Virus record (IMG/VR): IMGVR_UViG_3300027151_000013 | Location: 1 to 40,951 of that record | DNA from: a virus | Direction: 5' to 3' (one strand) | DNA length: 40,951 nt | In this document: in pieces, positions 10,554 through 26,996 of the stretch | Layout: every line of letters begins with the position of its first letter | Position numbering within the stretch: the stretch's first letter is position 1 | The notes under the pieces: model-generated | Told to the model about the DNA's origin: nothing | The model's input: only the letters and a program-made list of their open reading frames with translations | Databases searched by the model: none | Position numbers and translations under genes: made by a program

Positions 10554-10575
10554 CTGAACGGCAGCGTATATAAAC
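10554..10575 (+). repeat. GAACGGTGGCGTATATAA-family element, copy 1
   Basis: CTGAACGGCAGCGTATATAA followed by AC. First of ten same-orientation copies; two differences from the consensus. It lies 38 nt before the -35 of the 10613 promoter. Confidence 0.85.
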
Positions 10576-10612
10576 TTAAACAAGGAGAGGCGAACATTTG
10601 TTTGCCCGGTGG

Positions 10613-10641
10613 TTGCTTTTATACTCATAGGCATATATAAT
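10613..10641 (+). promoter_or_regulatory. TTGCTT-17-TATAAT promoter
   Basis: TTGCTT (10613-10618), 17 bp, TATAAT (10636-10641). Its flanks (GGTTGCTTTT ... ATATATAATGG) recur at 20622-20655. Drives the gene at 10688 through a short leader. Confidence 0.82.
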
Positions 10642-10687
10642 GGATATGTTAGATAAACCTAGAACTCTTTAAGGAGTAATAAAAATA

Positions 10688-10951
10688 GTGAAAATAGAAA
10701 GAAAGTCATTAGAAGAAATCTTTGAGCAGGACGTATTGAGCCTTGCTCGAGTGTTGAAGGCGGTGCAGCGAACCGATGATGTAATTCTGTCGGAACTACA
10801 TCGAACTGAACAAATTAACCAGTCGGCTGTTTTTAAAAGCACATTACTGGAACTTCACCAAAAACTTTATGATCTGGAAAGTCTGGTGGTAAAAGTTCAA
10901 AGCGTTCTGCAAGTCCCAGAGTCTCTCCGTAAGGAAAGCGAGATATTTTAA
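10688..10951 (+). CDS. Small coiled-coil-like protein (87 aa)
   Basis: GTG start with AAGGAG 11 nt upstream (10671-10676). The sequence is almost wholly amphipathic helix (ERKSLEEIFEQDVLSLARVL, LHQKLYDLESLVVKVQSVLQV), suggesting a helical dimer. No enzyme motif. First gene of the plus-strand accessory region, downstream of repeat copy 1 and the 10613 promoter. Confidence 0.7.
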   Translation: MKIERKSLEEIFEQDVLSLARVLKAVQRTDDVILSELHRTEQINQSAVFKSTLLELHQKLYDLESLVVKVQSVLQVPESLRKESEIF

Positions 10952-10956
10952 TAAAG

Positions 10957-10985
10957 CACACCTTGTTACACCCAGTTCGTAACAT
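10957..10985 (+). promoter_or_regulatory. ACACCC-class promoter
   Basis: CACACC (10957-10962), N5, ACACCC, N6, TAACAT (10980-10985); 17-bp spacer. Drives the gene at 11028. Confidence 0.8.
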
Positions 10986-11027
10986 AGGTAAGAAGAAAAC
11001 ATAAATATACTAAACAGGGAGATAGAC

Positions 11028-11531
11028 ATGAAACAACTAACAGAGAGTTTTATAGACCAAACATTCAAGTCATTGTTTGCGGAACGAAACGCGAAATATG
11101 GTGAAGGTTGGTCGTGGCGAAAAGAGCACCAAGAAGAAAGCACATTTCTCGGCGAAATCTATAGAGGTCTGAGCGTCCTGTCGAAGTGGCAGAGTGAAGG
11201 CGCAAAAGGCGCACCCGAAGTTTTCTTAAACGGTTACAGTGTCCACGAACAAGTGATCCCTGTCCTCGTCACCGAATACCTCGGTAAAGAAGTTTGTGCG
11301 AAACCTGAAGAACTCCGGGTGGAGACACGAGAACAAAAATTCAACAGGTTCTTGAAATGGGCGAATGAGCACCATTTTGAGCAATACACAACTGAGCAAT
11401 TGACCGAGCAAAGCGGCTTCTCCTACCAAACCACCTTGAAGTATTTACAGGAGACCCCAACTTTCCGTAAACTCAAAAAGGGTTTGTGGGAAATCCGTGA
11501 CGCAAAAGCAGACAGAGAAGCACAGAAGTAA
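11028..11531 (+). CDS. Hypothetical protein with C-terminal winged-helix-like region (167 aa)
   Basis: AGGGAG precedes ATG 11028. The N-terminal half is helical and acidic/basic mixed (FIDQTFKSLFAERNAKYGEGWSW). The C-terminal third (QYTTEQLTEQSGFSYQTTLKYLQETPTFRKLKKGLWEIRD) has the spacing of a helix-turn-helix followed by a wing, so DNA binding is plausible. It could be one of the regulators of this region. No family is recognised with certainty. Confidence 0.7.
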   Translation: MKQLTESFIDQTFKSLFAERNAKYGEGWSWRKEHQEESTFLGEIYRGLSVLSKWQSEGAKGAPEVFLNGYSVHEQVIPVLVTEYLGKEVCAKPEELRVETREQKFNRFLKWANEHHFEQYTTEQLTEQSGFSYQTTLKYLQETPTFRKLKKGLWEIRDAKADREAQK

Positions 11532-11571
11532 TTAAACATAAACAACTAAATAGAAAGGCAGACAATAAACA

Positions 11572-11784
11572 ATGAAACTAAGAAAACAAAAGCGCACATT
11601 CGAGACAACCTCAACCCGAATCCATGAACTCCGTTCACAGATAGAGGCTGCGAAAACAGAACTTGCAGAGGAACTCGCATACTTGGAGCAATACAAGGTC
11701 GATGTTGAGGTAACTTCCCGTTGCATCAACGACGAACTCGGTGTCAAACCAATGTTCACATGGCAAGTAGACGCATTCGTATGA
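11572..11784 (+). CDS. Coiled-coil protein (70 aa)
   Basis: Residues 8-45 form a heptad-rich helix (TSTRIHELRSQIEAAKTELAEELAYLEQYK), followed by a short C-terminal segment with one Cys and a Trp. AGAAAGG lies about 17 nt before the ATG. The final codons overlap the next ATG (ATGA). Function unknown. Confidence 0.68.
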   Translation: MKLRKQKRTFETTSTRIHELRSQIEAAKTELAEELAYLEQYKVDVEVTSRCINDELGVKPMFTWQVDAFV

Positions 11785-11993
11785 CCAAGCCTTACCTAGT
11801 CCGTTGGGAAATGATCTACGAAGCAGACAACCACATAGACGCAATCACACAGGCATACGCAGAGATTTGCGACCTAGCGAAAGACCCTTCACAAGGTGCA
11901 AACTATGTGACTGTTATGTATGACGGCGACCATTCCATCAAGACATCCATGCAAATAGACGAAGCGTTAAACCTCGTTGGTGAGCATGAATAA
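11781..11993 (+). CDS. Small hypothetical protein (70 aa)
   Basis: Start at the ATGA overlap. Begins KPYLVRWEMIYEADNHIDAITQAYAEICDLAKDP, a beta-alpha layout common in small phage proteins that resemble half a ferredoxin-like fold. No motif. The next gene starts inside its last codons. Confidence 0.68.
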   Translation: MTKPYLVRWEMIYEADNHIDAITQAYAEICDLAKDPSQGANYVTVMYDGDHSIKTSMQIDEALNLVGEHE

Positions 11994-12135
11994 ACGCACG
12001 GTCGGTATCTTTTTAACTATCAAGGTGTTCTTGATGGCATTCTTTGGTGTCCCAATTCTTTTTGCGTTGTATCAAATACGCAAGTTGGCACGCAACAACC
12101 CCAAAGAGAAGCCGGCAAAACCTTTTTACGAATAA
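11986..12135 (+). CDS. Small single-pass membrane protein (49 aa)
   Basis: ATG at 11986 overlaps the end of the previous gene by 8 nt. One hydrophobic helix (VGIFLTIKVFLMAFFGVPILFALY, residues 6-29) is followed by a basic/Pro-rich cytoplasmic tail. Function unknown. Confidence 0.62.
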   Translation: MNKRTVGIFLTIKVFLMAFFGVPILFALYQIRKLARNNPKEKPAKPFYE

Positions 12136-12170
12136 AATAAGATAAACTATTAACCTAGACGAGGAACTTA

Positions 12171-12332
12171 ATGAACCCTGTTATTGAACTCATCGACAAA
12201 TCAATCAAAACCATCTCGAGCCGTGAACTTGTTGCGTCCTCGGAGATGGTTGATCTACTTTTAGATCTCCGTATGTTGTGCGAACTGCAAACCCCAACAG
12301 CAGAACTTGCGATCGTCGGCGCAGAAATCTAA
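12171..12332 (+). CDS. Small helical protein (53 aa)
   Basis: GAGGA lies 6 nt upstream of ATG 12171. Amphipathic helices with paired Leu residues (EMVDLLLDLRMLCELQTP). No family. Ends just before a terminator hairpin at 12333-12352. Confidence 0.6.
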   Translation: MNPVIELIDKSIKTISSRELVASSEMVDLLLDLRMLCELQTPTAELAIVGAEI

Positions 12333-12352
12333 TTCTGGGGAAGAACCCAGAA
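12333..12352. terminator. Hairpin between convergent genes
   Basis: TTCTGGG (12333-12339) pairs with CCCAGAA (12346-12352) across a 6-nt loop. Lies between the plus gene ending at 12332 and the minus gene ending at 12365; it may end both transcripts, though no long T run follows. Confidence 0.6.
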
Positions 12353-12364
12353 CTTAACAATTAT

Positions 12365-12565
12365 CTAGAACAATGTTGGTGCGTCGTCAAAGGCGTTACG
12401 CGATTCTGTGCATATTCTGTGGGCATACCCAAGCGGCATTGAAGGGCTTCGGGGTGAGCCAATATATTTCCCGTCCTTGTGTTCCACCCAACTTACTATT
12501 TTGACGGAATAAGAAGTGTTTACCGTGTCGAACTCGACATTACAAATAGAGCAGGAAACTTTCAC
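12365..12565 (-). CDS. Small zinc-binding protein (66 aa)
   Basis: GTG start at 12565, six nt after a -10-like TAAGAT (12572-12577), so probably leaderless. CSICNVEF at residues 5-12 and HRICTES near residue 50 give a C-x2-C...H-x2-C pattern expected to hold zinc. A lone minus-strand gene within the plus region, with its promoter in the repeat-rich intergenic stretch. Function unknown. Confidence 0.62.
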   Translation of the reverse strand: MKVSCSICNVEFDTVNTSYSVKIVSWVEHKDGKYIGSPRSPSMPLGYAHRICTESRNAFDDAPTLF

Positions 12566-12639
12566 AACCGGATCTTATCTGCTATTGGGAGTCCCGTGCC
12601 TTTACGATAAGACACGGGGCTTATGCGCCGCCACCAAAC

Positions 12640-12701
12640 AAAAGTCGAACGTTCCCGGCAAAAAGTCGAACGTTCCCGGCAAAAAGTCGAGTCTTCCCGG
12701 C
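12640..12701 (+). repeat. Three tandem 20-bp iteron-like repeats
   Basis: AAAAGTCGAACGTTCCCGGC at 12640-12659 and 12661-12680 (identical) and a diverged copy at 12682-12701, with a 21-bp period (two helical turns). Same-face spacing favours a protein-binding array. Confidence 0.9.
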
Positions 12702-12826
12702 AAATCAACAGTCCAGTTTTGTAAAGTGTCAACGGGGCTGTCACAAAGAATCAAATTTTCACGGGGCTTTCAAGTTCTGGCGCGCAATCGACCGGATCTC
12801 GAACCTGGGCAACCGGTCGCGCCAAT

Positions 12827-12848
12827 CTGAACGGCGGCGTATATAAAC
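12827..12848 (+). repeat. GAACGGTGGCGTATATAA-family element, copy 2
   Basis: CTGAACGGCGGCGTATATAA followed by AC; one difference from consensus. Followed by an AT-rich segment. Confidence 0.88.
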
Positions 12849-12926
12849 CGTATATCGGATCGTATATATGGATCTCAGATATATCGGATATGCGATATAT
12901 CTTTAATGCCCCCGATAGTCGTAGCG

Positions 12927-12955
12927 CACACTCTGATACACCCATACCGTAATAT
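12927..12955 (+). promoter_or_regulatory. ACACCC-class promoter
   Basis: CACACT (12927-12932), N5, ACACCC, N6, TAATAT (12950-12955); 17-bp spacer. Drives the gene at 13008 through the AAACCAACTAGACAT leader. Confidence 0.85.
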
Positions 12956-13007
12956 AGTTAGTAATAAGTTAATCAATATAAACCAACTAGACATGGGAGA
13001 TAAATAA

Positions 13008-13469
13008 ATGACACAACCAACAATCACACTAGACGCAAATTTTGCGCAGGCAACTCGCAAGGTGGGCGATCGTGAGATCACTTACACTTGGCGCAGCCCG
13101 TCTCAAAATATTGAATTCGAAGGCGAGTTAGTCGGTGGGCAAGTCAGTTTGACTATCTCGCACGACTCAGGTCGCAAAGAGTTCAGGTCGTTCATCCAGT
13201 TCGCACACTACGACAATTCCGGCGGCTATATGTGTGTAAAGTTCACGATATTTGACACGGTGAACTACCCACACGGCACGGTCGCAACGCAACCGATCGC
13301 ACGCTATAGCGCTAAGGCGTTAGGCGAGTTTGAGACTCGAGTCATTAACTACCTGACGCATGGAGTTCACGGCGGCAGTGAGTCAGTTCATCAGGCGTGG
13401 GCACGGGCAACCGAGATCGCAATGGGTGGCGATGGCACACTTCGTTATAGCGAAGCGATGTCAATGTAA
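13008..13469 (+). CDS. Hypothetical protein (153 aa)
   Basis: GGGAG ribosome-binding site upstream of ATG 13008. The N-terminal two thirds look beta-rich (ITYTWRSPSQNIEFEGELVGGQVSLTISHD, GYMCVKFTIFDTVNY), the C-terminal third helical (AKALGEFETRVINYL). I do not recognise the family. Single-gene unit with its own ACACCC promoter and a highly structured downstream segment. Confidence 0.75.
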   Translation: MTQPTITLDANFAQATRKVGDREITYTWRSPSQNIEFEGELVGGQVSLTISHDSGRKEFRSFIQFAHYDNSGGYMCVKFTIFDTVNYPHGTVATQPIARYSAKALGEFETRVINYLTHGVHGGSESVHQAWARATEIAMGGDGTLRYSEAMSM

Positions 13470-13472
13470 GAC

Positions 13473-13551
13473 ACTCACTTAGGTGAGTCGCCTAGCCCGT
13501 TAGGGGTAGCCCGTCATAGGGCAACTAGGCACTAGCGCCACAATCGTGGCG
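13473..13551 (+). ncRNA. Structured RNA leader / three-way-junction candidate
   Basis: Four nested or consecutive stems lie between two genes: ACTCAC/GTGAGT (13473-13488); an outer GCCTAG/CTAGGC (13490-13495 with 13525-13530) enclosing CCC/GGG (13496-13505) and GCCC/GGGC (13509-13522); then CGCCAC/GTGGCG (13536-13551). This could be a structured 5' leader of the gene at 13577 or a processed small RNA. It is not a tRNA. Confidence 0.55.
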
Positions 13552-13576
13552 TGATAACAACAACGAAAGGTAAAAA

Positions 13577-13855
13577 ATGCTATTAGAAGATTCATTAAGC
13601 GAAGTATTGGCAGAGAATTATCATGGCGTCGGTGCGATCGGTATGGAGATCGTAGAATCGGTGATTGACGATCTGACTCACAACCGTTATGAAGACGATT
13701 GGATCGAAGCGATGGAGATCACTAGAGATGACTTATCGCGTGAGTTATTCAGTCTTGTGCGTGGGATTATTGAAGGCGGATATTTGAATTCAATGCGAAC
13801 CCCCGATGGTTGGGTGGAGTTGCATCGGATTAAACTCGCAGATCACGACGAGTAA
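13577..13855 (+). CDS. Acidic hypothetical protein (92 aa)
   Basis: GAAAGG precedes ATG 13577. Helical and acidic (DSLSEVLAENYHGVGAIGMEIVESVIDDL), with no recognised motif. It follows the structured 13473-13551 segment and ends before a strong terminator at 13878-13906. Confidence 0.72.
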   Translation: MLLEDSLSEVLAENYHGVGAIGMEIVESVIDDLTHNRYEDDWIEAMEITRDDLSRELFSLVRGIIEGGYLNSMRTPDGWVELHRIKLADHDE

Positions 13856-13877
13856 TCCAAACTCTTAGGCGTTCAGT

Positions 13878-13915
13878 AGCCCGTCTGCCGTTCCGGCAGG
13901 CGGGCTATTTATGTT
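13878..13915. terminator. Strong bidirectional terminator
   Basis: AGCCCGTCTGCC (13878-13889) pairs with GGCAGGCGGGCT (13895-13906) around GTTCC, with one T-G pair, followed by ATTTATGTTT. Separates convergent genes. Confidence 0.85.
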
Positions 13916-14247
13916 TATACCGTCAATAGTTCACGCCAGTAGCGTGCTTGGTCGTCAGCGTGCAAGCGTGCCCACGACATAAGCGTGCGTCTGAGTGTCG
14001 TTAGTTCATGCGTCTCGAGAGTCTTATCTAGGTGCTTATCGCATATTACGGGCGCAATAGCGTCTCGCAATAGTGCATAGGCTGGATTATCGGTATCTAT
14101 CCGATCTAGCCGTGCCGATACCTTAACGGGCATAAGTGCTGCACTCTCATTGTCAAATAGATCGGGGTCGGAGTCTGCCAATGTATTAACAACTTCAGCG
14201 ATCTGCAAATTATGAGATCGACGGCGGGGTCTGAGTGGTGAAGACAT
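13915..14247 (-). CDS. Hypothetical protein (110 aa)
   Basis: Basic N-terminus (SSPLRPRRRSHN), then helical segments with two Trp-containing helices (LRRTLMSWARLHADDQARYWREL). The ATG at 14247 is six nt after TACCCT and lacks a Shine-Dalgarno, so leaderless is likely. A lone minus gene beside the DnaA-box region, so a replication or partition role is conceivable but unsupported. Confidence 0.65.
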   Translation of the reverse strand: MSSPLRPRRRSHNLQIAEVVNTLADSDPDLFDNESAALMPVKVSARLDRIDTDNPAYALLRDAIAPVICDKHLDKTLETHELTTLRRTLMSWARLHADDQARYWRELLTV

Positions 14248-14419
14248 ATTTGAAGGGTATCGCCAATCGACGCAAACCTGCCAACAGCCCCGTAAAGAAT
14301 TTGTGAAGACATGAGTCCCGTAAGATGTTTTACATTCACGGGGCTCTCAACTGGCTCGACATTTTGACCGGCTCTCGACCGGCTCTCGACGCAGCCAGGC
14401 GCGACCAAGTTCCCCCAAC

Positions 14420-14441
14420 CTGAACGGTGGCTTATATAAAC
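14420..14441 (+). repeat. GAACGGTGGCGTATATAA-family element, copy 3
   Basis: CTGAACGGTGGCTTATATAA followed by AC; one difference from consensus. Lies 44 nt before the DnaA boxes. Confidence 0.88.
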
Positions 14442-14484
14442 TACAACGAGCCTGAGACAAAAGTGCCAATCTGTCTCACGACAG

Positions 14485-14514
14485 TTATCCACAGGCATAG
14501 GCAAGTTATCCACA
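14485..14514 (+). other. Two DnaA boxes (origin candidate)
   Basis: Two identical TTATCCACAGG sequences begin at 14485 and 14506, 21 bp apart (two helical turns, same face). TTATCCACA is the high-affinity DnaA consensus. Confidence 0.8.
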
Positions 14515-14570
14515 GGTTGGGGGTAGGTTTGACGACCACAACACAATGAAAAAAAGTTTAGAAAAGAGGA

Positions 14571-14599
14571 CACACTTTACAACACCCGTGCCGTAATAT
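14571..14599 (+). promoter_or_regulatory. ACACCC-class promoter
   Basis: CACACT (14571-14576), N5, ACACCC, N6, TAATAT (14594-14599); 17-bp spacer. Drives the gene at 14650. Confidence 0.85.
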
Positions 14600-14649
14600 A
14601 TATAGTAATAACAAATATAAATATACACACTAAAAATAGAGAGGTAAAA

Positions 14650-14937
14650 ATGCTAGTAAATATAAAACCAAAATATCCAAACATAAGCATTGACTTATCA
14701 GACCAAGACGGTAATGCGTTCGCAATAATTGGCACTTGCACTCTTGCGTTAAAGCGAAACGGGCTGCGCGACCAAGTGAAACCTTTTATCGCAGAAGCGA
14801 CATCTGGCGACTACGACAAAGTTCTTAGAACAGTTTTGGCGTGGTTCTCGGTTGAAATAAATGTAGAGGAAATAAACACAGCGACGAATTGCAATTACTG
14901 CGAAGAACTTCACGAAGATTGCGAGTGCGAGGGTTAA
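14650..14937 (+). CDS. Small protein with C-terminal Cys cluster (95 aa)
   Basis: GAGAGG precedes ATG 14650. The body is alpha/beta (ISIDLSDQDGNAFAIIGTCTLALKRNG), and the tail has CNYCEELHEDCECEG, a Cys/His cluster that could bind metal. I recognise no family. First gene after the DnaA boxes. Confidence 0.72.
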   Translation: MLVNIKPKYPNISIDLSDQDGNAFAIIGTCTLALKRNGLRDQVKPFIAEATSGDYDKVLRTVLAWFSVEINVEEINTATNCNYCEELHEDCECEG

Positions 14938-15002
14938 TCACCTCGCGTAAGCAACCCCCCTTACACCTCGGGCGTGGCTCTTCAATGAGCATAGGGGACT
15001 AA

Positions 15003-15018
15003 CCGAACAACCGTTCGG
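15003..15018 (+). promoter_or_regulatory. Leader hairpin before small gene
   Basis: CCGAAC/GTTCGG 6-bp stem with AACC loop, 30 nt upstream of the ATG at 15048. May stabilise the mRNA or attenuate transcription. Confidence 0.45.
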
Positions 15019-15047
15019 CGACAACAGACAACAAAGGAAAAATAATT

Positions 15048-15209: not shown

Positions 15210-15235
15210 TAAAACAAACACAACAAGGAGAAGTA

Positions 15236-16013: not shown

Positions 16014-16143
16014 TATCTAGCCCCGTTGTGGAAACAACGAAACGGGGCTCTCCGAAGATCCTCAATCCACGGGGCTTTTGACAAAGCCGGCTCAGATCCA
16101 GATCCAATCGACTCCCAGCGCCAGGGCTGATCGACTCCCCAAA

Positions 16144-16165
16144 CTGAACGGTGGCGCATATAAAT
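16144..16165 (+). repeat. GAACGGTGGCGTATATAA-family element, copy 4
   Basis: CTGAACGGTGGCGCATATAA followed by AT; one difference from consensus. Directly precedes DnaA-like boxes. Confidence 0.88.
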
Positions 16166-16174: not shown

Positions 16175-16208
16175 TTACCCACAAGCCTGTGGATAAACCT
16201 GTGGAAAA
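16175..16208. other. Cluster of three DnaA-like boxes
   Basis: TTACCCACA (16175-16183, plus), TGTGGATAA (16188-16196, i.e. TTATCCACA on the minus strand) and TGTGGAAAA (16200-16208). One perfect and two near-consensus boxes in both orientations. Confidence 0.72.
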
Positions 16209-16289: not shown

Positions 16290-16559
16290 ATGAAAAAGCA
16301 GCACGAAGCAACCGTCACATTGACATACACCCAACTAATGCAACTGGGATACGCGTTATCAAATCGCATTGCGAAAGCAGTGACGACCACCCCATTCGAG
16401 GAACAGGACGACTACTTCCAATACCTCTTAGAGGAAATGATGAGCGCACACAGCCTCTTAGAAGCAGAGGCAGACCGTCTCGGTGGAGTTATTGAGGACG
16501 AAACCGTTACGGAGTTCGCAACCAACCTAGATCAAACAATTTCAGAAATCTTGAAGTAG
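16290..16559 (+). CDS. Helical hypothetical protein (89 aa)
   Basis: GGAG lies 6 nt upstream of ATG 16290. Mostly helix (YTQLMQLGYALSNRIAKAV, YFQYLLEEMMSAHSLLEAEADRL) with an acidic C-terminal helix. No family. Single-gene unit behind region D. Confidence 0.72.
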   Translation: MKKQHEATVTLTYTQLMQLGYALSNRIAKAVTTTPFEEQDDYFQYLLEEMMSAHSLLEAEADRLGGVIEDETVTEFATNLDQTISEILK

Positions 16560-17116: not shown

Positions 17117-17145
17117 GTAACCCTACAACACCCCCTACCTAAAGT
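17117..17145 (+). promoter_or_regulatory. ACACCC-class promoter with inverted repeat over the -10
   Basis: GTAACC (17117-17122), N5, ACACCC, N6, TAAAGT (17140-17145). ACACCCCC (17128-17135) and GGGGGTGT (17147-17154) form a stem around the -10. Confidence 0.75.
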
Positions 17146-17203
17146 GGGGGGTGTAAGTAACAAAACAACCAAATCACAAATCAACCAAACGAAGGGCAAT
17201 AAA

Positions 17204-17941
17204 ATGACAGAACAAAAACAAGAAGTCCGACAAGACTTACCACAATGTTGGAAAGATGTTGAGAATGCTCTCAACGCTGGCGTAGACCGATTGATCTTAT
17301 TCGGACCTCCAGGCACCGGCAAAACTTTTGCAGGTCTCAACTACGGTGATACAACAGCAGGCGCATTCCGACTTATCTGCACAGAGGATATGTCCAACGC
17401 GCAAGTTGAAGGACACTACAAGATGAACGGCGAAGGCGGCTGGTCTTGGACAGACGGTAAAGCAGTATCAGCATGGAAGGGTGACGGTTTGCGTGGCGGT
17501 CGTCTCGTTATCGACGAGATTGACAAAGCAGGCGCAGATGTTTTCGCAACACTTCTCGCATTCACTGACTCACCAGAGTCGGCAAAATGGGAAAGCCCTG
17601 ACAACCAACGGGTAATCACTCCGAAAGACGGTTTCAGTGTCGTGATGACCACGAACATTGAGACTATGGAAGAGTTGCCTGAAGCGTTGAAAGATCGTTT
17701 CCCTGTAGCAATCCGTATTGACCAACCTCACCCTGACGCACTCAAAAAGTTGTCGGCAGATTTGCGTGAGTATGCAGTTCGTATGGCAGACGCAGGCGAG
17801 CGCAGGATTTCATTGCGAACTTTCTACGCATTTGACCAACTCCGAAAGTCGTTGGGCGACAAAGAAAGTGCGCGACTGGTATTCGGTAAGCAAGCAGAAA
17901 GCGTCCTAGACGCAATCGCAATCAATAAGGTAGCAGTTTAA
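17204..17941 (+). CDS. MoxR-like AAA+ ATPase
   Basis: 245 aa from ATG 17204. Walker A FGPPGTGKT (33-41), Walker B RLVIDEID (100-107), then VVMTTNIETMEELPEALKDRFPVAIRID, which contains the sensor-1 TTN and the arginine-finger region. The layout is that of the MoxR branch, whose members act as chaperones that insert metal or activate a partner carrying a VWA domain. The next gene encodes exactly such a partner (HExxH plus VWA). Each has its own ACACCC promoter. GAAGGG precedes the start. Confidence 0.9.
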   Translation: MTEQKQEVRQDLPQCWKDVENALNAGVDRLILFGPPGTGKTFAGLNYGDTTAGAFRLICTEDMSNAQVEGHYKMNGEGGWSWTDGKAVSAWKGDGLRGGRLVIDEIDKAGADVFATLLAFTDSPESAKWESPDNQRVITPKDGFSVVMTTNIETMEELPEALKDRFPVAIRIDQPHPDALKKLSADLREYAVRMADAGERRISLRTFYAFDQLRKSLGDKESARLVFGKQAESVLDAIAINKVAV

Positions 17942-17970
17942 ATAACCCCGTTACACCCCTCATCTAAAGT
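17942..17970 (+). promoter_or_regulatory. ACACCC-class promoter with inverted repeat over the -10
   Basis: ATAACC (17942-17947), N5, ACACCC, N6, TAAAGT (17965-17970). TTACACCCC (17951-17959) and GGGGTGTAA (17973-17981) flank the -10 as a 9-bp inverted repeat. Leader AAACCAACTAAACAT follows at 18007-18021. Confidence 0.78.
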
Positions 17971-18034
17971 GGGGGGTGTAATCAAGTCGCCATAAGCAAG
18001 CGGCATAAACCAACTAAACATAGAAAGAGAAAAT

Positions 18035-19528
18035 ATGAAAACAGAAATTAGACCACTCCCCGAAATGTTGGGGCGTAAAGACAAAGACGCAGGCGCATGG
18101 CGAGTAGATACTTGTGCCCCTGTTCGAGGCAAACCATTTACCAATGTTGTGAGCAAGCATATGGTTGTTCCTATTGGTGACGAGCAAGTTGATCGTGTTA
18201 TTCGTGCACACGAAATGGCTCACGCAAGGTTCTCGCCAGCAGATGATTTTCCAAAGTGGGTAGCACGAGGTATCGCAACAGAAACCGGTCTCACGGTCGT
18301 TGAGGAAGTTCGTGTGAACTTTCTCATTAAGAAAGCAGGATTCGATGTAGATCTACTTGCAGACGGAAGCGAGAAAGCGTCAGGCGTTCGCATTGCGGAG
18401 CAGGCAGATTGGACTCAGGCTGTTTATATTGCAGTTGGTTATTCAATTTGTGGCGGCGGCAAAGATTTCATCACTGGCGTAAGGCGTGTGAACCCAGCGT
18501 GGGCAAAAACATTGCGCGAAATTATTAAAGCAGTTGAGAAGGAGTTTGTCAAAGCATTCAAAACTGGCACTCTTGGTTCAACCGAAGTAGACCCTAGACA
18601 CGGTCTTGCACCTTTTGGTTTCTCGCATACTGAGCGCATTGCAGAATGGGTAGATCGTCTCGCAAATCCACCAGTCGATGAGGACAAGCAAGATGAACAG
18701 AACAAGCAAGATGAACAGAACAAGCAAGGCGAGCCAAAGCCTGAGGACAAAGAAAAGAAAGACGGCGACAAAGGTGTCGGCGCAACCGATAAGCCTCAAC
18801 CGAAAGCAGATCCAAAAAAAGTTCGTCCTGCGGAAGTAAGCAGAGGTGAGGGAGTTATCCCTAGTTGGGGCAAACTTATTGTCGGCAACCTTCCACTCAC
18901 TCGCAAAGCGCACGGCGGTCTTGGTCGCAAGCGTGTCGCAAGCAACATGGGGCGCAACCCTCGCAGAATTGGCAACGCGCTTGCAGACCCTGAGAAGCGA
19001 GTGTTTGACCGATACAAAAAAGGTAACGGCGGTATTGTTTTGATTGACGGTTCAGGTTCAATGTCTTTAAACAATAAAGATATTCTTGACATCACCGAAG
19101 CGTCACCAGGTTGCACTGTTGCTGTTTATTCAGCAGATAGAACAAATGTTAAACCCAACCTTCTTGTCATTGCACAAAACGGAAAAATGATTGACAAACT
19201 TCCTGAACGAAACGGCGGCAACGGCGTAGACGGTGAAGCAATCCGTTGGGCAACAAAACAGCGCAAGCGATCATCGACCCCTATCGTTTGGATTACTGAC
19301 GGTAAGGTTCACGGACTTGGCAACGGCGGTCAATGGGGTGGATACCACGACATCTTGGCAATGGACTGTATTAAAGAAGTTCTAAAACATAAAGTGTTTA
19401 TGGCGCACGATGTCAAGCAGGGTCTTGCAGTTCTCAATCAATTAAAAGTCGGCAAGAAACCGACTCGTTGGTATCCGAGATGTTGGCAGGAAACATATCA
19501 GAAACTAAACGGAAAGCGTTTAGGGTAA
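18035..19528 (+). CDS. HExxH / von Willebrand factor A domain protein
   Basis: 497 aa. Residues 59-63 are HEMAH, a zinc-peptidase HExxH motif, with TVVEEVRVN (about 87-95) as a possible third ligand. A low-complexity charged linker (about 214-265) contains near-perfect DEQNKQ repeats. The C-terminal domain begins GGIVLIDGSGSMS, with the DxSxS metal site of VWA domains (338-342), followed by VVWITDGKVHG-like strands. This HExxH+VWA arrangement (DUF2201/CobT-like) usually partners a MoxR ATPase, which is the adjacent upstream gene. It probably forms a metal-dependent chaperone or protease complex acting on a phage or host target; the target is not visible. Confidence 0.88.
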   Translation: MKTEIRPLPEMLGRKDKDAGAWRVDTCAPVRGKPFTNVVSKHMVVPIGDEQVDRVIRAHEMAHARFSPADDFPKWVARGIATETGLTVVEEVRVNFLIKKAGFDVDLLADGSEKASGVRIAEQADWTQAVYIAVGYSICGGGKDFITGVRRVNPAWAKTLREIIKAVEKEFVKAFKTGTLGSTEVDPRHGLAPFGFSHTERIAEWVDRLANPPVDEDKQDEQNKQDEQNKQGEPKPEDKEKKDGDKGVGATDKPQPKADPKKVRPAEVSRGEGVIPSWGKLIVGNLPLTRKAHGGLGRKRVASNMGRNPRRIGNALADPEKRVFDRYKKGNGGIVLIDGSGSMSLNNKDILDITEASPGCTVAVYSADRTNVKPNLLVIAQNGKMIDKLPERNGGNGVDGEAIRWATKQRKRSSTPIVWITDGKVHGLGNGGQWGGYHDILAMDCIKEVLKHKVFMAHDVKQGLAVLNQLKVGKKPTRWYPRCWQETYQKLNGKRLG

Positions 19529-19658: not shown

Positions 19659-20009
19659 TTATCGGATCTCTTTCATCACTCCTGCGTCAACGTAACGAAT
19701 AAAAGCGACACCGGCGGTCACGATTACCGCTTCGGTGAACGACAAAGTGTCTACACCTAGCGCAAGCGCAACACGATAAACAACGAACGACATACCGCCG
19801 ACACCGAGCAACATACCGAACAATGCGACAATCGACTTGCCTAGTTTGCTGCTCACGGTTTTGCGTCCCAATTCTTGATCATAGAAATCATCTTCGTCTT
19901 CTCTAAACAATTCATTTAGATCGTTGTCAGAAATACTATGCGACCACTCACTCATCTTTTTCCAAGCATCACGCTTACGGTGATCGTGTCCAAACTCTTG
20001 GTTAGACAT
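19659..20009 (-). CDS. Two-TM membrane protein (116 aa)
   Basis: A polar acidic N-terminal half (NDLNELFREDEDDFYDQ) is followed by two hydrophobic helices (SIVALFGMLLGVGGMSFVVYRVALAL and FTEAVIVTAGVAFIRYVDAGV). The start ATG at 20009 lies within the end of the upstream HTH gene (8-nt overlap). No family. It could tether a partner to the membrane. Confidence 0.74.
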   Translation of the reverse strand: MSNQEFGHDHRKRDAWKKMSEWSHSISDNDLNELFREDEDDFYDQELGRKTVSSKLGKSIVALFGMLLGVGGMSFVVYRVALALGVDTLSFTEAVIVTAGVAFIRYVDAGVMKEIR

Positions 20010-20388
20010 TTTGTTTTGAAACTTTCTTCACGATCTGGTGAACTCGTTGGCGCGACAAATTGTAACTATCTGCGATAACACCTACGCGCTCCCCGCTCTT
20101 GTAACGCTGAGTGATCTCTGCGTCTCGTTTCTTATCGTAGCGTCTGCCAGGTTTTTGCTTAGCCCAATGCCACCCCACGAGGCTCTCTAACGCTCGCTGA
20201 CGATCTACGGATAACTCACCTGCTCGATACTGCTGACGGTTGTAGGCAACCCACGCACCAAGCGCAACATTTTTCCCTTGATAAATCTCAACTTGAGTAG
20301 CGGGCACAAGCGAAGTTCTCGTGCGATCGGCGTATTGTTTTAATGCCTCGAACCTGTATTGCCACCTGTTTGTCCGGGAAATTGTCAT
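20002..20388 (-). CDS. Helicase-associated / helix-turn-helix protein
   Basis: 128 aa from ATG 20388, seven nt after TAATAT (20396-20401), so probably leaderless; a TTG at 20406 is an alternative. The middle (LGAWVAYNRQQYRAGELSVDRQRALESL.GWHWA) matches the 'helicase-associated' three-helix DNA-binding repeat. The end (RDAEITQRYKSGERVGVIADSYNLSRQRVHQIVKK) is a resolvase/sigma-4-like helix-turn-helix. It should bind DNA. It is transcribed divergently from region E and is one candidate reader of the repeat elements. Confidence 0.82.
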   Translation of the reverse strand: MTISRTNRWQYRFEALKQYADRTRTSLVPATQVEIYQGKNVALGAWVAYNRQQYRAGELSVDRQRALESLVGWHWAKQKPGRRYDKKRDAEITQRYKSGERVGVIADSYNLSRQRVHQIVKKVSKQNV

Positions 20389-20540
20389 AGCCTTGATATT
20401 AGTCAAGCGAACAGGTGTTTGTGTGCAATAGCCCCGTGCTCAGAAGATAGGCACGGGACTCCCGCCCCACCTCTGGGCAAACGGGGCTGTCTAATTTGCA
20501 ACGATTGTTATTTAGCATCAGTTGATCGGATGTATCTAAC

Positions 20541-20562
20541 CTGAACGGTGGCGTATATAAAC
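20541..20562 (+). repeat. GAACGGTGGCGTATATAA-family element, copy 5
   Basis: Exact consensus CTGAACGGTGGCGTATATAA followed by AC. Confidence 0.9.
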
Positions 20563-20623: not shown

Positions 20624-20653
20624 TTGCTTTTTGTTTTTGGTCATGTATATAAT
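20624..20653 (+). promoter_or_regulatory. TTGCTT-18-TATAAT promoter
   Basis: TTGCTT (20624-20629), 18 bp, TATAAT (20648-20653), flanked by the same GGTTGCTTTT and ATATAATGG as the 10613 promoter. Confidence 0.78.
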
Positions 20654-22690: not shown

Positions 22691-22860
22691 TGAAAGTTAT
22701 AGACACGACTGGAACTAATGTAAAAATCAGACGGACACCGGGTAAAAACGAATGGTTCTATTCAGTTGATGGAGCAGAGTTCGTAAAAGCAACATTCAAT
22801 AAATGTTTAGAAATTGTCACAATCGCCCGTCAATCAACAAAAAACGAAGGAGCAAAGTAA
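22690..22860 (+). CDS. Small hypothetical protein (56 aa)
   Basis: Start ATG 22690 in a TAATG overlap with GAAGGAG upstream. Basic, beta-rich start (VKIRRTPGKNEWFYSVDGAEF) then one helix. Ends NEGAK with the third copy of the junction. Function unknown. Confidence 0.68.
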   Translation: MKVIDTTGTNVKIRRTPGKNEWFYSVDGAEFVKATFNKCLEIVTIARQSTKNEGAK

Positions 22861-23213
22861 TGGAAACCCAAAGAGCGAAACGTAGACACTTACTACTCAC
22901 TCAAGAGATCAGGGACACTCTCTCACCTCTCTACGACAGCGAGAAGCACCCTGAGAAGGAGTCGGTCGCAATGGTCAAGTTCTTCTCACCGTATTCCCAA
23001 TGGACTTGGTATGCGGTTGAGTTTGACGGCGACGACCTCTTTTGGGGGCTCGTAGACGGCTTTGAAATGGAGTATGGATATTTCTCATACAGCGAACTAG
23101 AAGCAGTGACCGTCTTTGGCGGCGTTCCAGCAATCGAACGCGATTGCCATTGGAGTCCTCGTCCAGTAAAAGAGATTGAAGCAGAGATTCGAAGTAGGGC
23201 GGTTCGGGTATAA
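22860..23213 (+). CDS. DUF2958 family protein
   Basis: 117 aa from the TAATG-coupled ATG 22860. Family blocks are visible: LSPLYDSEKHPEKESVAMVKFFSPYSQWTWYAVEFD, DLFWGLVDGFEMEYGYFSYSELEAV and ERDCHWSPRPVKEI. DUF2958 proteins are common on plasmids and phages beside anti-restriction or replication genes; their activity is unknown. Last of the four coupled genes. Confidence 0.88.
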   Translation: METQRAKRRHLLLTQEIRDTLSPLYDSEKHPEKESVAMVKFFSPYSQWTWYAVEFDGDDLFWGLVDGFEMEYGYFSYSELEAVTVFGGVPAIERDCHWSPRPVKEIEAEIRSRAVRV

Positions 23214-23230
23214 CAACCCGACCGTTCAGG

Positions 23231-23260
23231 GTTGCAAAACATTTTTGCAACCTATATAAT
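23231..23260 (+). promoter_or_regulatory. Promoter with palindromic operator
   Basis: TTGCAA (23232-23237), 17 bp, TATAAT (23255-23260). The -35 and most of the spacer lie in a perfect 9-bp inverted repeat, GTTGCAAAA (23231-23239) and TTTTGCAAC (23243-23251), which looks like a repressor site. Confidence 0.75.
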
Positions 23261-23305
23261 AAATATACACAATAAATAAATCAACTAGAAATGGAGTTAC
23301 TAAAA

Positions 23306-23740
23306 ATGGGCAAGTTAATCATCAACACTATGGACGGCACGGTCTGTGAGTTCACAGGCACGGTCATAGTGGACACAGACACATTTGACGAAGCAGGCAA
23401 AGCACTGTTTCAAGAATGGCAAGACGGTGGGAACGACGGAACAGCGTGCGAACTTGGCGAGAAATACGGAACAGCGTTGGAGAGGTTCACCGACAACGAT
23501 CTCACTTACGCGAACTCAATCGCATTCAGTGTGAAAGCGTTGCGTGAAGAAATCACCGATCGTTTAGATAGCGGTTACGAAGGCGCAGAATACAGGTTCG
23601 CAAAAGAACTAACAGACGACCAACTAAACGAGTTGGGGCAATACATATTGTCATCAGATTACTTGTGGAATGTTTACACGGAAGAACTACTTTCGGGCAT
23701 CCGCAACTACGCAAGCGACATCATGGGGAGAAAAATATAA
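23306..23740 (+). CDS. ArdA-like antirestriction protein candidate (144 aa)
   Basis: I use ATG 23306, which has ATGGAG nine nt upstream in the position used by the other genes here; ATG 23291 is an alternative. The protein is strongly acidic. The segment FQEWQDGGNDGTACELGEKYGTALERF, then ANSIAFSVKALREEITDRLDSGYEGAEYRFAKELTDDQLNELGQYILSSDYLWNVYTEEL, has the acidic-helix character of DNA-mimic proteins. I cannot confirm ArdA; it may be an unrelated acidic protein. Regulated by the palindromic promoter. Confidence 0.5.
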   Translation: MGKLIINTMDGTVCEFTGTVIVDTDTFDEAGKALFQEWQDGGNDGTACELGEKYGTALERFTDNDLTYANSIAFSVKALREEITDRLDSGYEGAEYRFAKELTDDQLNELGQYILSSDYLWNVYTEELLSGIRNYASDIMGRKI

Positions 23741-24000
23741 TGCAAGGCAGAGACCTAGTTAGCAAAATCCAAACAATGGTTCTACCCGACGAAGAAGTTT
23801 TAGCAATCTTCTTCAAAAAAGAGGACTTTGAAATAACTGAACCAATGTTCAACGATGAAGAGGCATATCTCATCTCCGACGAAGATTGGCGATCAGCAAT
23901 CAACATGATTGGTAGAGAGTTGGACAGCATCTACGAACAGTGTCACGAAATCATCAACGACGCATTACACCGAGTTTACTTCAGCAGGGAGAAAGCATAA
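23740..24000 (+). CDS. Acidic hypothetical protein (86 aa)
   Basis: Start in a TAATG overlap. Acidic alpha/beta pattern (LPDEEVLAIFFKKEDFEITEPMFNDEEAYLISDEDW) then a helix. No family. Second gene of the 23306-25112 operon. Confidence 0.72.
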   Translation: MQGRDLVSKIQTMVLPDEEVLAIFFKKEDFEITEPMFNDEEAYLISDEDWRSAINMIGRELDSIYEQCHEIINDALHRVYFSREKA

Positions 24001-24182
24001 TGATTAAAGAAACAGAACTCGAATACACAGTGAACACACTTGTAGACCTGTCACGATACCTATGGGGTGACAACTCCACAGAGTTCCTAGCAGGCGCACT
24101 GGAAAGCGTTATATCCCACAAACAAATGGTGGTCTTAATAGACGACCTGAAACGACAAGTAAAAGAAACGGTAACCCAATGA
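24000..24182 (+). CDS. Small helical protein (60 aa)
   Basis: TAATG-coupled, with AGGGAG in the upstream gene's end. Two helices (EYTVNTLVDLSRYLWG, EFLAGALESVISHKQMVVLIDDLKRQVKE). Function unknown. ATGA overlap with the next gene. Confidence 0.68.
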   Translation: MIKETELEYTVNTLVDLSRYLWGDNSTEFLAGALESVISHKQMVVLIDDLKRQVKETVTQ

Positions 24183-24484
24183 TTAAACAACCAGTGTTGG
24201 ACTTTGGCTTATGGTGCGACGAATATAAACCACAAACCAATCATCTCGATAAGAATGCGTCGTTTGACGACGAGCAAGGTGGGATTATGTTCGAAACCTA
24301 CGGACCAGAACTTGAATATGTCTTGTCTGTGGCTAAAACTAAACCACTAAATGTCTGGACTTATATGGACGGCGAACATCAACCAATCGTCTGTGAGGGC
24401 TATCACTTAGTAAACAGAATTGGATACTTCATAACAGAGAAGCCGGCAAATCCAGATACTCAATACGAAATAACTTTATCATAA
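24179..24484 (+). CDS. Hypothetical protein (101 aa)
   Basis: Starts at ATGA. A conserved-looking beta pattern (GIMFETYGPELEYVLSVAKTKPLNVWTYMDGEHQPIVCEGYHLVNRIGYFITEKP) is typical of small single-domain phage proteins. No catalytic motif. TAATG overlap with the next gene. Confidence 0.74.
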   Translation: MIKQPVLDFGLWCDEYKPQTNHLDKNASFDDEQGGIMFETYGPELEYVLSVAKTKPLNVWTYMDGEHQPIVCEGYHLVNRIGYFITEKPANPDTQYEITLS

Positions 24485-24582
24485 TGAAAAACTACACCAG
24501 TTCGAGACCTCCGTTCATAAAGGGCGCAGGTAAAAATATTCCAAATCCAAAAACAAAAGTAAAGAAAAAGGAGAAAAAATAA
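24484..24582 (+). CDS. Tiny basic peptide (32 aa)
   Basis: ATG 24484 in a TAATG overlap and stop in another. Disordered and Lys-rich (KTKVKKKEKK at the end). Its AAAAAGGAG end doubles as the ribosome-binding site for the next gene, so it may be mainly a translational coupler. Confidence 0.55.
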   Translation: MKNYTSSRPPFIKGAGKNIPNPKTKVKKKEKK

Positions 24583-25112
24583 TGCATACATATCATCGAC
24601 TAGCGGTAGTAGCAGACAACGAGGAAGAAGCAAAATACACGGCACTTCATTTCGCAGAAGAACAAGAGTGGTCTGATTGGTGCTGCATCCTCGAAGAGGA
24701 TCGTGTTAGTGAAGAAGAATGTAAAATAGCGACAAACTTCAAGAACGATCCGGAAATCTTCAATAAACTTATTGAGCAGGCGCGTGAGTGGACACAATCA
24801 ACCGTGAACCTAGCAATAGAACTTTATGGAGATATCCCATTGAAGGATTTACTCACTAACCCTGAATACGACTTTGGTGGTTTCTCGGGGTCTGTAAAAG
24901 AACTTACAGATGAAGAACGAGACACTAAACTTAAAAACTCCCTCGCAGTATTTAAGGCTGGGAGGGCGTTTCGTGTCAAAAACGGAGAATACAACTCAGA
25001 CATGATGTTCTACGATACGGTCGAATACACATCCAATCCTAAATGGGTGCATGAGCGTTCGAATGCCGACCCTGATAAACAGTGGATCGTGATCGTGGAC
25101 TACCACTTCTAA
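24582..25112 (+). CDS. Hypothetical protein (176 aa)
   Basis: TAATG start with AAGGAG. N-terminal segment HTYHRLAVVADNEEEAKYTALHFAEEQEWSDWCC is alpha/beta, followed by acidic helices and a C-terminal strand pair (KQWIVIVDYHF). No family recognised. Ends the operon at an 8-bp hairpin (25103-25122). Confidence 0.75.
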   Translation: MHTYHRLAVVADNEEEAKYTALHFAEEQEWSDWCCILEEDRVSEEECKIATNFKNDPEIFNKLIEQAREWTQSTVNLAIELYGDIPLKDLLTNPEYDFGGFSGSVKELTDEERDTKLKNSLAVFKAGRAFRVKNGEYNSDMMFYDTVEYTSNPKWVHERSNADPDKQWIVIVDYHF

Positions 25113-25122
25113 ACAGAAGTGG
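25103..25122 (+). terminator. Hairpin overlapping the stop of the 24582 gene
   Basis: CCACTTCT (25103-25110) pairs with AGAAGTGG (25115-25122) around AAAC, followed by CTTTAT. The stem includes the stop codon and directly precedes repeat copy 6. Confidence 0.6.
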
Positions 25123-25133
25123 CTTTATCCAAA

Positions 25134-25154
25134 TTGAACGGTGGCGTATATGCC
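25134..25154 (+). repeat. GAACGGTGGCGTATATAA-family element, copy 6
   Basis: TTGAACGGTGGCGTATATGC; extends to an imperfect palindrome, GGTGGCG-TATA-TGCCGCC. Confidence 0.85.
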
Positions 25155-25171
25155 GCCAGAAAGAAGTAGAC

Positions 25172-25495
25172 ATGGACTTCAAAGACTTTTTAGAAGAAGA
25201 TAACGACGACGTAATGATCCGTATGGAGCACGAAGACGGAACTAAGGTCACATTCTTGACCGCACCTCCTGAGGTGTTCACACAGCGCGAAGAACTAGAA
25301 CCGTTGGTGTATGGCATCGGCGATAAAGATGTGTGCGTCGCATTCAACAGCGACCTCATAGAACGGTTGATTGCAGAGTCGATAGAAAAGAACGGAGAAA
25401 CATATGGTGCGCAAGCATCAGCGTTTCTCCCGATCACCATGATCTTAAACAAAGGTCTGAAAGCGGTGGATAAATATATACGGGATCAAAAGTAA
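25172..25495 (+). CDS. Acidic hypothetical protein (107 aa)
   Basis: ATG 25172 with only AAGAAG upstream; longer in-frame starts overlap the previous gene and the repeat, so I reject them. Acidic N-terminus (DFKDFLEEDNDDVMIRMEHEDG) then alpha/beta. No family recognised. Flanked by repeat copies 6 and 7. Confidence 0.72.
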   Translation: MDFKDFLEEDNDDVMIRMEHEDGTKVTFLTAPPEVFTQREELEPLVYGIGDKDVCVAFNSDLIERLIAESIEKNGETYGAQASAFLPITMILNKGLKAVDKYIRDQK

Positions 25496-25504
25496 CCCCA
25501 CAAA

Positions 25505-25526
25505 CTGAACGGTGGCGTATACGCCG
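25505..25526 (+). repeat. GAACGGTGGCGTATATAA-family element, copy 7
   Basis: CTGAACGGTGGCGTATACGC; centre GGCGTATACGCC is a perfect 12-bp palindrome, which suggests a dimeric protein site. Confidence 0.88.
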
Positions 25527-25565
25527 TTGAACTAAACTATAAACATAGATAAAGGAAACCACATA

Positions 25566-25907
25566 ATGAAACCATTTAACAGAATCCACACCAAACAGAT
25601 AGACATGGGAGTCTGCCCCAGATGTGAAGGGCTGATCCCCTCTAACGACAAACACAAACAATATGTGGGCGCAATCTCCCGGCTAACTCGGAGCATACGA
25701 AACGGCAAACCAATAGAGATATGTTCTGACTGTGGAACAGAAGAAGGAATGCAAGAACACTTTGAGGGTTTTGCAACACCAATTAAAGACTGGCCGATTA
25801 TGACAGATAAAGCAATTTTGCGACGATCAGAAGCGTTCAGCATCTTGTTGGAATGGGAACAAAAAATAGATGAAGCGATGGAAGGCGACGATGAAGAACC
25901 GTTCTAA
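25566..25907 (+). CDS. Zinc-ribbon protein (113 aa)
   Basis: AAAGGA precedes ATG 25566. CPRCEGLIPSNDKHKQYVGAIS at the start and CSDCGTEEGMQEHFEG in the middle form a C4 zinc site; the CSDCGTEEGM block is frequent in phage and plasmid proteins of unknown role. The C-terminal helix is acidic. The next small gene starts inside its end. Confidence 0.78.
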   Translation: MKPFNRIHTKQIDMGVCPRCEGLIPSNDKHKQYVGAISRLTRSIRNGKPIEICSDCGTEEGMQEHFEGFATPIKDWPIMTDKAILRRSEAFSILLEWEQKIDEAMEGDDEEPF

Positions 25908-26016
25908 AAAGAAACCGAAGTTATCCATACTGCACGGTGGCGTATACGACGATCTTGCACGCTCGATGCGCAACCACCCAACTCACAAAAAGCCCACACT
26001 TAAATTAGTTAAGTAA
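25891..26016 (+). CDS. Small basic protein containing repeat copy 8 (41 aa)
   Basis: ATG 25891 overlaps the end of the zinc-ribbon gene by 17 nt. The product is very basic (MKNRSKKKPKLSI...THKKPTLKLVK). The repeat element (25930-25950) encodes ILHGGVYDD in its middle. This may be a real basic peptide that hosts the element, or a chance reading frame through it. Confidence 0.5.
   Translation: MKNRSKKKPKLSILHGGVYDDLARSMRNHPTHKKPTLKLVK
25930..25950 (+). repeat. GAACGGTGGCGTATATAA-family element, copy 8
   Basis: CTGCACGGTGGCGTATACGA; preceded by TTATCCATA, a degenerate DnaA-like box (25921-25929). Confidence 0.82.
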
Positions 26017-26333
26017 GAAACGGGCACTACGACACTTAACCCGACGGAAAGTTCGTAGTCCCGTTCCTTACAACGACGAGTCTTTAGATGGGGGTCTTCA
26101 GAGCCCTGTCGATATACAGAAGACTAGCAAGCCCCGTTCTGGTGAAACAACACCACAACATATTGGGGGTAATCAGGCTGCACGGGGCTTACAACCACAA
26201 CATAGAGATATATAACAGTACTAGTGGTTTTTCTTTCAAATGTGCTTGCGACGGGGCTATCGGCCTGCTAACTTGTACAAACACATCACGGGACTGCGAC
26301 GAATAAAATAGTAAGCGCGGATAAGCATCTAAC

Positions 26334-26355
26334 ATGCACGGTGGCGTATATAACC
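26334..26355 (+). repeat. GAACGGTGGCGTATATAA-family element, copy 9
   Basis: ATGCACGGTGGCGTATATAA followed by CC. Confidence 0.85.
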
Positions 26356-26534
26356 TTTCGTCGACGATTAATAATCAAATCTAGATCTCCGATCATCAAA
26401 AATCGTAGATCCGGTTCTGGCTGTCCGCCAACTAAAATAGATTCGGTAAAGGTTTTCACACTTTCCAAAATGATTTAATTTATGTAACTTTAATAAGTTA
26501 TTTCATCGTTGTTTATAACTATCTAATTTGGAAC

Positions 26535-26563
26535 TTGACCTTTTACTGAAAAGGGTGTAGAGT
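26535..26563 (+). promoter_or_regulatory. SigA-like promoter, leaderless
   Basis: TTGACC (26535-26540), 17 bp, TAGAGT (26558-26563). ATG 26571 follows by seven nt. Confidence 0.85.
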
Positions 26564-26570
26564 CTGTTTT

Positions 26571-26996
26571 ATGATTGCGGAAAAGAATCCAGAGATGTTC
26601 CCCAACCCGAACGGTGGCGTAAACAACTCAGATAAACCTAAACAGAAGCGACCCCGGATATCTGCAAAGCAGCGCGCTGAAAAAGCCAAATCAATATCCG
26701 ACGAAGCAGTCAAAATTGTTTGGGACTATTGGGTTAAGACTATGGGCGCATCCAAGTTGGCTGTCCTAGACCACGACCGCAAAGTCAAGATAGCGGCATC
26801 AATCCACGACTACGGCATAGAAGCCTCCTGCCTCGCTATAGACGGCTGTGCTTCATCTCCCTTCCATATGGGCGACAACCCTCGGCAAAAGAAGTACAAC
26901 GGCATAGACCTGATCTTTCGAGACGCCGACAAGATAGAAGGCTTCATACAACGAACAGAGAAGCGCAATGCGCGTCAAGAGTTCCTAGATGAATAA
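26571..26996 (+). CDS. Phage replication-type protein (141 aa)
   Basis: Leaderless ATG at 26571. The core AVKIVWDYWVKTMGASKLAVLDHDRKVKIAASIHDYGIEASCLAIDGCASSPFHMGDNPRQKKYNGIDLIFRDADKIEGFI has the pattern I associate with the C-terminal domain of phage replisome organisers and DnaT-like proteins (AIDGC..SPFHMGDN...Y..I.LI.RD..KIE.F). It probably recruits the helicase or loader to the origin. Codons 12-17 contain repeat copy 10 (PNPNGGVNN). Overlaps the next gene by 8 nt. Confidence 0.78.
   Translation: MIAEKNPEMFPNPNGGVNNSDKPKQKRPRISAKQRAEKAKSISDEAVKIVWDYWVKTMGASKLAVLDHDRKVKIAASIHDYGIEASCLAIDGCASSPFHMGDNPRQKKYNGIDLIFRDADKIEGFIQRTEKRNARQEFLDE
26606..26624 (+). repeat. GAACGGTGGCGTATATAA-family element, copy 10 (in CDS)
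   Basis: CCCGAACGGTGGCGTAAAC, inside codons 12-18 of the replication-type gene. The most diverged copy at its right end. Confidence 0.7.

Follow-up and report, generated by a model that had tools for sequence, protein, structure and literature searches.

Repeated sites in the window

The window analysed here is an entire linear IMG/VR record (IMGVR_UViG_3300027151_000013; 40,951 b), and it contains ten copies of a repeated element, S, all situated on the plus strand, with at most three mismatches each; none occurred in 100 dinucleotide shuffles. A sequence-only reading had earlier reported ten co-oriented copies, eight of them outside genes and none beyond 10.5–26.7 kb. Our analysis agrees on all three points; no eleventh copy is present in the record, and the last copy starts at 26607 rather than at 26606.

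The first copy, S1 (CTGAACGGCAGCGTATATAA, 10554–10573), lies in the divergent gap between a leftward gene (9799–10398) and a rightward block. The following three are located 5' of genes: S2 (12827–12846) precedes the gene at 13008–13469, S3 (14420–14439) the gene at 14650–14937, and S4 (16144–16163) the gene at 16290–16559. S5 (20541–20560), a perfect copy, again occupies a divergent gap; the gene for HA-HTH, a protein with a helix-turn-helix (HTH), starts approximately 139 bp away. S6, S7 and S8 are found in tight intergenic gaps or in a small open reading frame (ORF): S6 (25134–25153) separates the gene at 24582–25112 from an ATG at 25173, S7 (25505–25524) lies between 25173–25495 and 25566–25907, and S8 (25930–25949) is inside a 41-aa ORF (25891–26016), where, by our reading of the alignment, the downstream codons differ mostly at third positions among relatives. 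S9 (26334–26353) is approximately 220 bp 5' of the gene for a replication-initiation-like protein, RepI (26571–26996, plus strand), and S10 (26607–26626) falls within the first codons of RepI. S8 and S10 are the two copies inside genes.

The distance between the end of S and the next called start is 19–217 bp for eight of the window copies and 621 bp for S8, S10 being intragenic. Across phages, the distance from S to the start barely differs from that of random positions.

Palindromic extensions of some copies had also been noted and taken to fit a dimeric binder. The palindrome at 25505 (GGCGTATACGCC), i.e. at S7, is real; it is only local, being missing from most copies and from nearly all relatives, which gives no support to a symmetric site for a dimer. 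We hence rejected a general palindromic dimer site.

Conservation of the array and of the motif

Among INPHARED phages, megablast yielded no similar genome, and tblastn with two proteins of the block was also empty; relatives were therefore taken from IMG/VR contigs. A scan of IMG/VR with an exact 15-mer gave 66 stretches. The multi-copy relatives, including records of 138, 145, 101 and 74 kb, mostly carry 9–11 copies each, on a single strand and in a single early/replication block of approximately 16–20 kb, with the order conserved. In six divergent relatives the copies correspond in order to S1–S10 of the window, except that G001 has one extra copy and G011 has no S10. A matrix scan of the pieces making up G001 and G025 (138 and 145 kb) separated true sites, which scored at least 25 bits, from all other positions, which scored at most 8 bits.

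Deeper relatives were retrieved with HA-HTH from the block as the query (matches at 40–53% identity), and their arrays read GACGGTGGCGGAAAGC; many further loci were added by a pattern scan and by a search with the AAA ATPase of the block. After dereplication, 41 array phages with a total of 0.93 Mb contained 351 sense and 13 antisense copies of the core, with 14 expected by chance. The array is conserved, strictly co-directional and under selection at the nucleic-acid level. The count per strand in relatives had been proposed in the sequence-only reading, and its outcome is that the motif is retained in relatives that have the same genes and that its orientation is non-random. A 23-bp pattern was also run against genome_contigs and found two copies, both in Bacteroidales metagenome-assembled genomes with the same flanks, which we took for a chance match within a gene.

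The conserved motif is 30 bp long, with the core ACGGTGGCG(G/T)A that is common to far more distant phages. Over 74 sites the conserved span is approximately −8 to +21, with the consensus TTNYCCAAMYTGAACGGTGGCGKATAYAAA; the originally described 20-mer understates the element. The matrix built from 67 sites holds 38.8 bits. The site is bipartite, comprising a drifting CNAA-type half approximately 9 bp upstream and a fixed core.

In RepI, S10 encodes D/N-G-G-x in 21 records and, in another frame, T-V-x-x in 10; within the core no third codon position varies, whereas one second position does. Since the reading frame of S10 differs from phage to phage, we conclude from the sequences that S is selected as a nucleic acid and not as protein. 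A protein-motif origin (L-N-G-G-V-Y) was rejected on the same frame differences and the invariant third positions.

The array loci span 44–63% GC and HA-HTH identities fall to approximately 40%, while the 11-bp core is kept. Because the core persists over such divergence, we consider the S system to be old. The array marks the early-gene region of a large family of uncultured viruses, and may be used as a flag for such phages in metagenomes. A phage WhiB gene is present, which points to an actinobacterium as the probable host (compare PMC6802176). For these uncultured phages, probably of actinobacteria and with records reaching 100–170 kb, S offers an approach to gene control that can be tested directly.

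Position of S relative to transcription signals

All promoters named here are predictions. S1 and S5, both in divergent gaps, are followed 60–80 bp further downstream by conserved sigma70-like promoters: TTGCTT-N17-TATAAT 3' of S1 (10613–10641, plus strand), with the footprint conserved across seven relatives, and TTGCTT-N18-TATAAT 3' of S5 (20624–20653, plus strand); the coordinates of both were obtained by counting. In the window clade, a conserved predicted promoter TTGAC(C/T)-N17-TA(G/A)A(G/C)T abuts the ATG of RepI (in the window TTGACC-N17-TAGAGT, 26535–26563, plus strand), so that the mRNA would begin at or near the ATG and be leaderless. S10 begins approximately 35 bp into RepI (26607 in the window, with RepI starting at 26571), that is, just inside the predicted transcript. 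In one related clade S opens with a TTGAC that itself serves as the −35 in a promoter-like sequence; an extended −10, TGCTANNNT, follows 17 bp on, and this layout, TTGACG(S)-N17-TGCTANNNT, is situated a few hundred bp 5' of RepI. At the sequence level, S overlaps with a promoter-like sequence at RepI in this clade.

TANNNT is found at offset +20 in 22 of 413 sites, compared to about four per offset elsewhere. Promoter-like sequences (at least 10 of 12 positions) are observed 3' of S in 12 phages, with the −35 mostly at 49–118 bp. An activator acting at fixed geometry was rejected, as the spacing from S to the promoter is variable.

Between S1 and its downstream promoter, at 10590–10605, there is an imperfect palindrome resembling a LexA/SOS box (GCGAACATTTGTTTGC), some form of which is found in most relatives of the clade.

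In another reading, S would itself act as a promoter, at which some factor of the phage directs the host RNA polymerase to start just 3' of S (middle promoters). The sites lie on one strand and before genes; in the window clade the 3' half of S is AT-rich (TATAYAA), with start codons 0–40 bp after S6 and S7; the TTGAC of S could act as the −35 upstream of RepI in the clade mentioned above; and in a related high-GC phage, G062, most copies of its array have TGCTANNNT. A precedent is given by the intergenic repeats of halovirus HF2 (PMC8707807). However, in most phages S continues as GGAAAGC with little AT enrichment after it, more than 90% of the sites have no −10 at a fixed distance, and S1 and S5 are followed by separate predicted promoters. 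No phage sigma factor was found: sigma-70 region 2 had no match in five long records, while a search for T7-type RNA polymerase was empty, although its controls did not ring. We regard a promoter role of S as distinctly unlikely.

The strict co-orientation with transcription would also be expected of an elongation pause or antitermination element similar to ops, acting as non-template strand or RNA and recruiting a factor to the moving polymerase. The core of ops is CGGTAGCGT, and the S core CGGTGGCGT matches it at eight of nine positions, with CGGTAGCG among the natural variants; moreover, GC hairpins AGCCCCG..CGGGGCT are located 60–140 bp 5' of many S. Against this reading, no NusG-family protein (PF02357) was found in five long records (G001, G025, G004, G012 and G029) by a search in which the control genomes rang, a host paralogue being possible; this is where the comparison with RfaH-type antitermination fails. 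In addition, S1 and S5 precede promoters within divergent gaps, a position in which one would expect little sense transcription, S overlaps a −35 in one clade, and Rfam gave no match in the window. An ops-like role seems very doubtful. The position of S1 and S5 similarly disfavours a purely RNA motif, which had been offered as an alternative in the sequence-only reading.

The hairpins may be described in a more general form, AGYCCCGY..RCGGGRCT; in the window they are at approximately 16015–16080 and 20430–20490, with similar spots 5' of many S. Sometimes there is a second 3' arm, possibly forming an alternative hairpin, and changes in the arms appear by eye to be compensatory between relatives.

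Comparison with known phage repeats

Few phage groups are known to have intergenic control sites that all point one way, the stoperators being studied best. In cluster A mycobacteriophages such as L5 and D29, stoperators are asymmetric, have many copies mainly in one orientation and are mostly intergenic; their positions are conserved between relatives while the motif drifts, and one copy overlaps a promoter (PMC5712189, PMC6550527, PMC9283540). S, with its many asymmetric copies, is alike in polarity, intergenic placement, conserved positions and drift between genomes. A counterpart to the overlap with a promoter may be seen at the sequence level, where S would be the predicted −35 upstream of RepI in the related clade and S10 lies just 3' of the predicted RepI promoter in the window clade. 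Both motifs contain GGTGG, and both contain TTGAC, on opposite strands. On the other hand, S has the core ACGGTGGCGGA in a longer bipartite site and is confined to one early block with DnaA boxes nearby, and the S phages gave no recognisable stoperator repressor in the searches described below. Cluster A phages are temperate, with an integrase or parABS; in the S phages no tyrosine integrase was found (five long records; serine integrases were not searched), and a ParB-like protein is present.

The window does not contain the L5 consensus, GGTGG(c/a)TGTCAAG (PMC5712189): one match with two mismatches was observed and 1.5 expected. An L5-type stoperator repressor was not seen among the PDB matches of the two queries used, the HA-HTH profile and the HTH protein of the block. 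As the test with the L5 consensus failed and no repressor was identified, S is not counted as a member of the L5 stoperators. The earlier comparison with stoperators thus stands for the arrangement (asymmetric, in one orientation, mostly intergenic, with positions conserved between relatives) and fails for membership: S is stoperator-like in its arrangement and, by sequence, not an L5 stoperator.

Two other groups of repeats were compared. The Start Associated Sequences (SAS) of cluster K mycobacteriophages are short and asymmetric, with 11–19 copies nearly all in one orientation in the non-structural region (PMC3203893). S shares with them the asymmetric repeat, the near-uniform orientation and the restricted gene region. 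SAS are situated 3–7 bp before start codons and have a Shine-Dalgarno core; S is not so placed, its distances to starts being very variable, with copies also inside genes and upstream of promoters. The HF2 repeats are 29–58 bp long, with sequence and relative positions conserved among related viruses, and their AT-rich motifs act as promoters (PMC8707807), whereas the S core is GC-rich and mostly has no −10.

The reading that we favour, which in our judgement is evenly poised between right and wrong, is that S would be an operator- or stoperator-like DNA site, bound by a phage-encoded regulator that acts on the host RNA polymerase over the rightward early/replication block. That neither a NusG paralogue nor a sigma factor was found in the five long records supports it. 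A protein would bind S and, depending on the position of the site, either block initiation or halt elongation in a polar way, whereby the early region would be shut down or staged.

Candidate reader proteins

Of the binders considered in the sequence-only reading, the HTH protein at 20.0 kb and a pair of ribbon-helix-helix (RHH) proteins remain plausible. HA-HTH (20002–20406, minus strand) has a Pfam HA domain and a C-terminal HTH, LSRQRVHQI, which is invariant in all eight aligned sequences. The two-domain architecture recalls the two-domain immunity repressor of L5 by analogy only. Of 57 long array loci, 55 encode HA-HTH. The RHH pair is encoded where the block ends: sRHH (27532–27708, plus strand), a 58-aa RHH protein with an N-terminal GRP stretch resembling an AT-hook, and, overlapping it, RHH-Zn (27698–28036, plus strand), likewise of RHH type and with four cysteines in a stretch at its C-terminus, which may be a reader itself or a partner. 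This tandem pair is present wherever the region is covered, including phages without HA-HTH. The RHH nature of both is indicated by weak but consistent matches; in a structure search the sRHH model hit mostly RHH folds at the top (CopG, Arc and others), with non-significant E-values near 1, and the HA-HTH model had no significant match.

Less firmly than the binding as such, the reader of S may be proposed to be either the tandem RHH pair at the end of the block or HA-HTH. An RHH heterodimer would suit the lack of symmetry in S, and via the RepI operon the two proteins would regulate their own expression. In favour of HA-HTH, 19 of 24 genomes have S at 57–204 bp from the HA-HTH start codon.

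Several observations weigh against the operator reading. No single candidate tracks S perfectly: G059–G061 retain the array and lack HA-HTH (G060 being a 151-kb record with an eleven-copy array); in G063 the RHH pair is present and the array is missing; and in G062, which encodes HA-HTH as well as the RHH pair, the 12 copies of the array are all on one strand but read TGTCCGACCCC, unrelated to S. Co-occurrence of the candidates with S is confounded by shared ancestry. Finally, the distance from S to the promoter is not fixed, and a roadblock would not be expected at S1 and S5, which precede promoters.

HA-HTH as the sole reader, initially based on 17 of 30 records, is weakened by G059–G061 and G062, and the RHH pair as the sole reader by G063. 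Column-by-column covariation between the motif and the candidates gave sRHH the highest mean association, at core position 7 (C/T/A), and was set aside, as phylogeny confounds it. The natural exceptions G060, G062 and G063 provide ready-made tests for the reader protein.

Two of these phages have further features. In G062, the array occupies the equivalent block (L289, approximately 1100–8350) and reads TTGTCCGACCCCCCTGCTACACT. G060 (L360–L367) contains a second one-strand repeat, GAGCCAGTTCAGCCACCGGTTGAGCC, with eight core copies in 151 kb.

DnaA boxes and replication

Boxes of the DnaA type are found next to some sites. In the window, two boxes TTATCCACA at 14485 and 14506 (14485–14514, plus strand) follow S3, and two more (16175–16196) follow S4: TTACCCACA at 16175 on the plus strand, with one mismatch, and TTATCCACA at 16188 on the minus strand. 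A DnaA-type box is present at the position downstream of S4 in most relatives. In the array blocks we counted 94 boxes TTATCCACA, compared to 6.7 for scrambled 9-mers, a 14-fold enrichment; 47 of the 94 are at most 150 bp from S, whereas rotations give a mean of 10.2 and a maximum of 36 in 2000. The boxes are unusually dense in the S-array phages and often form pairs 12–13 bp apart, which may reflect recruitment or titration of DnaA.

S could then be a replication-control module, in which the sites, together with host DnaA boxes and RepI/Rep2, would be dispersed origin-like or DnaA-recruiting or -titrating sites, any effect on transcription being secondary. Besides the enrichment of boxes in array blocks and near S, which is extreme in G065 (L358/L359; 35 boxes in 39 kb), this would agree with the distribution of RepI, observed in 54 of 57 long array loci (the rest being truncated) and missing from the array-less G063. 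The origins of lambda and SPP1 are situated in initiator genes, and S10 is likewise inside RepI. Among proteins of at least 250 aa in G001 and G025, no DNA polymerase was apparent by eye. At the same time, the 10–18 sites are spread over 16–45 kb at gene boundaries, mostly 0.3–5 kb apart, unlike the tandem clusters of iterons, so that the replication iterons suggested in the sequence-only reading are not what we observe. Many S have no DnaA box, the boxes being scarce in some array phages (two in 151 kb of G060, three in 138 kb of G001). The similarity of RepI to initiators (phrog_16167) is limited to their C-terminal part, with no DNA-binding domain recognised, and the strict co-orientation of S with transcription is left unexplained. 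On balance, a primary role in replication is unlikely.

Both functions may be combined if, in a control system of ancient origin, a heterodimer of the two tandem RHH paralogues reads this one element jointly with host DnaA at the neighbouring boxes, controlling early transcription, the start of phage replication and competition for DnaA. We consider this combination improbable.

Within the block, the window also encodes, at 17144–19528, the AAA ATPase followed by a conserved 497-aa gene (phrog_33218); each of the 57 long array loci has them, as does L304, which lacks an array.

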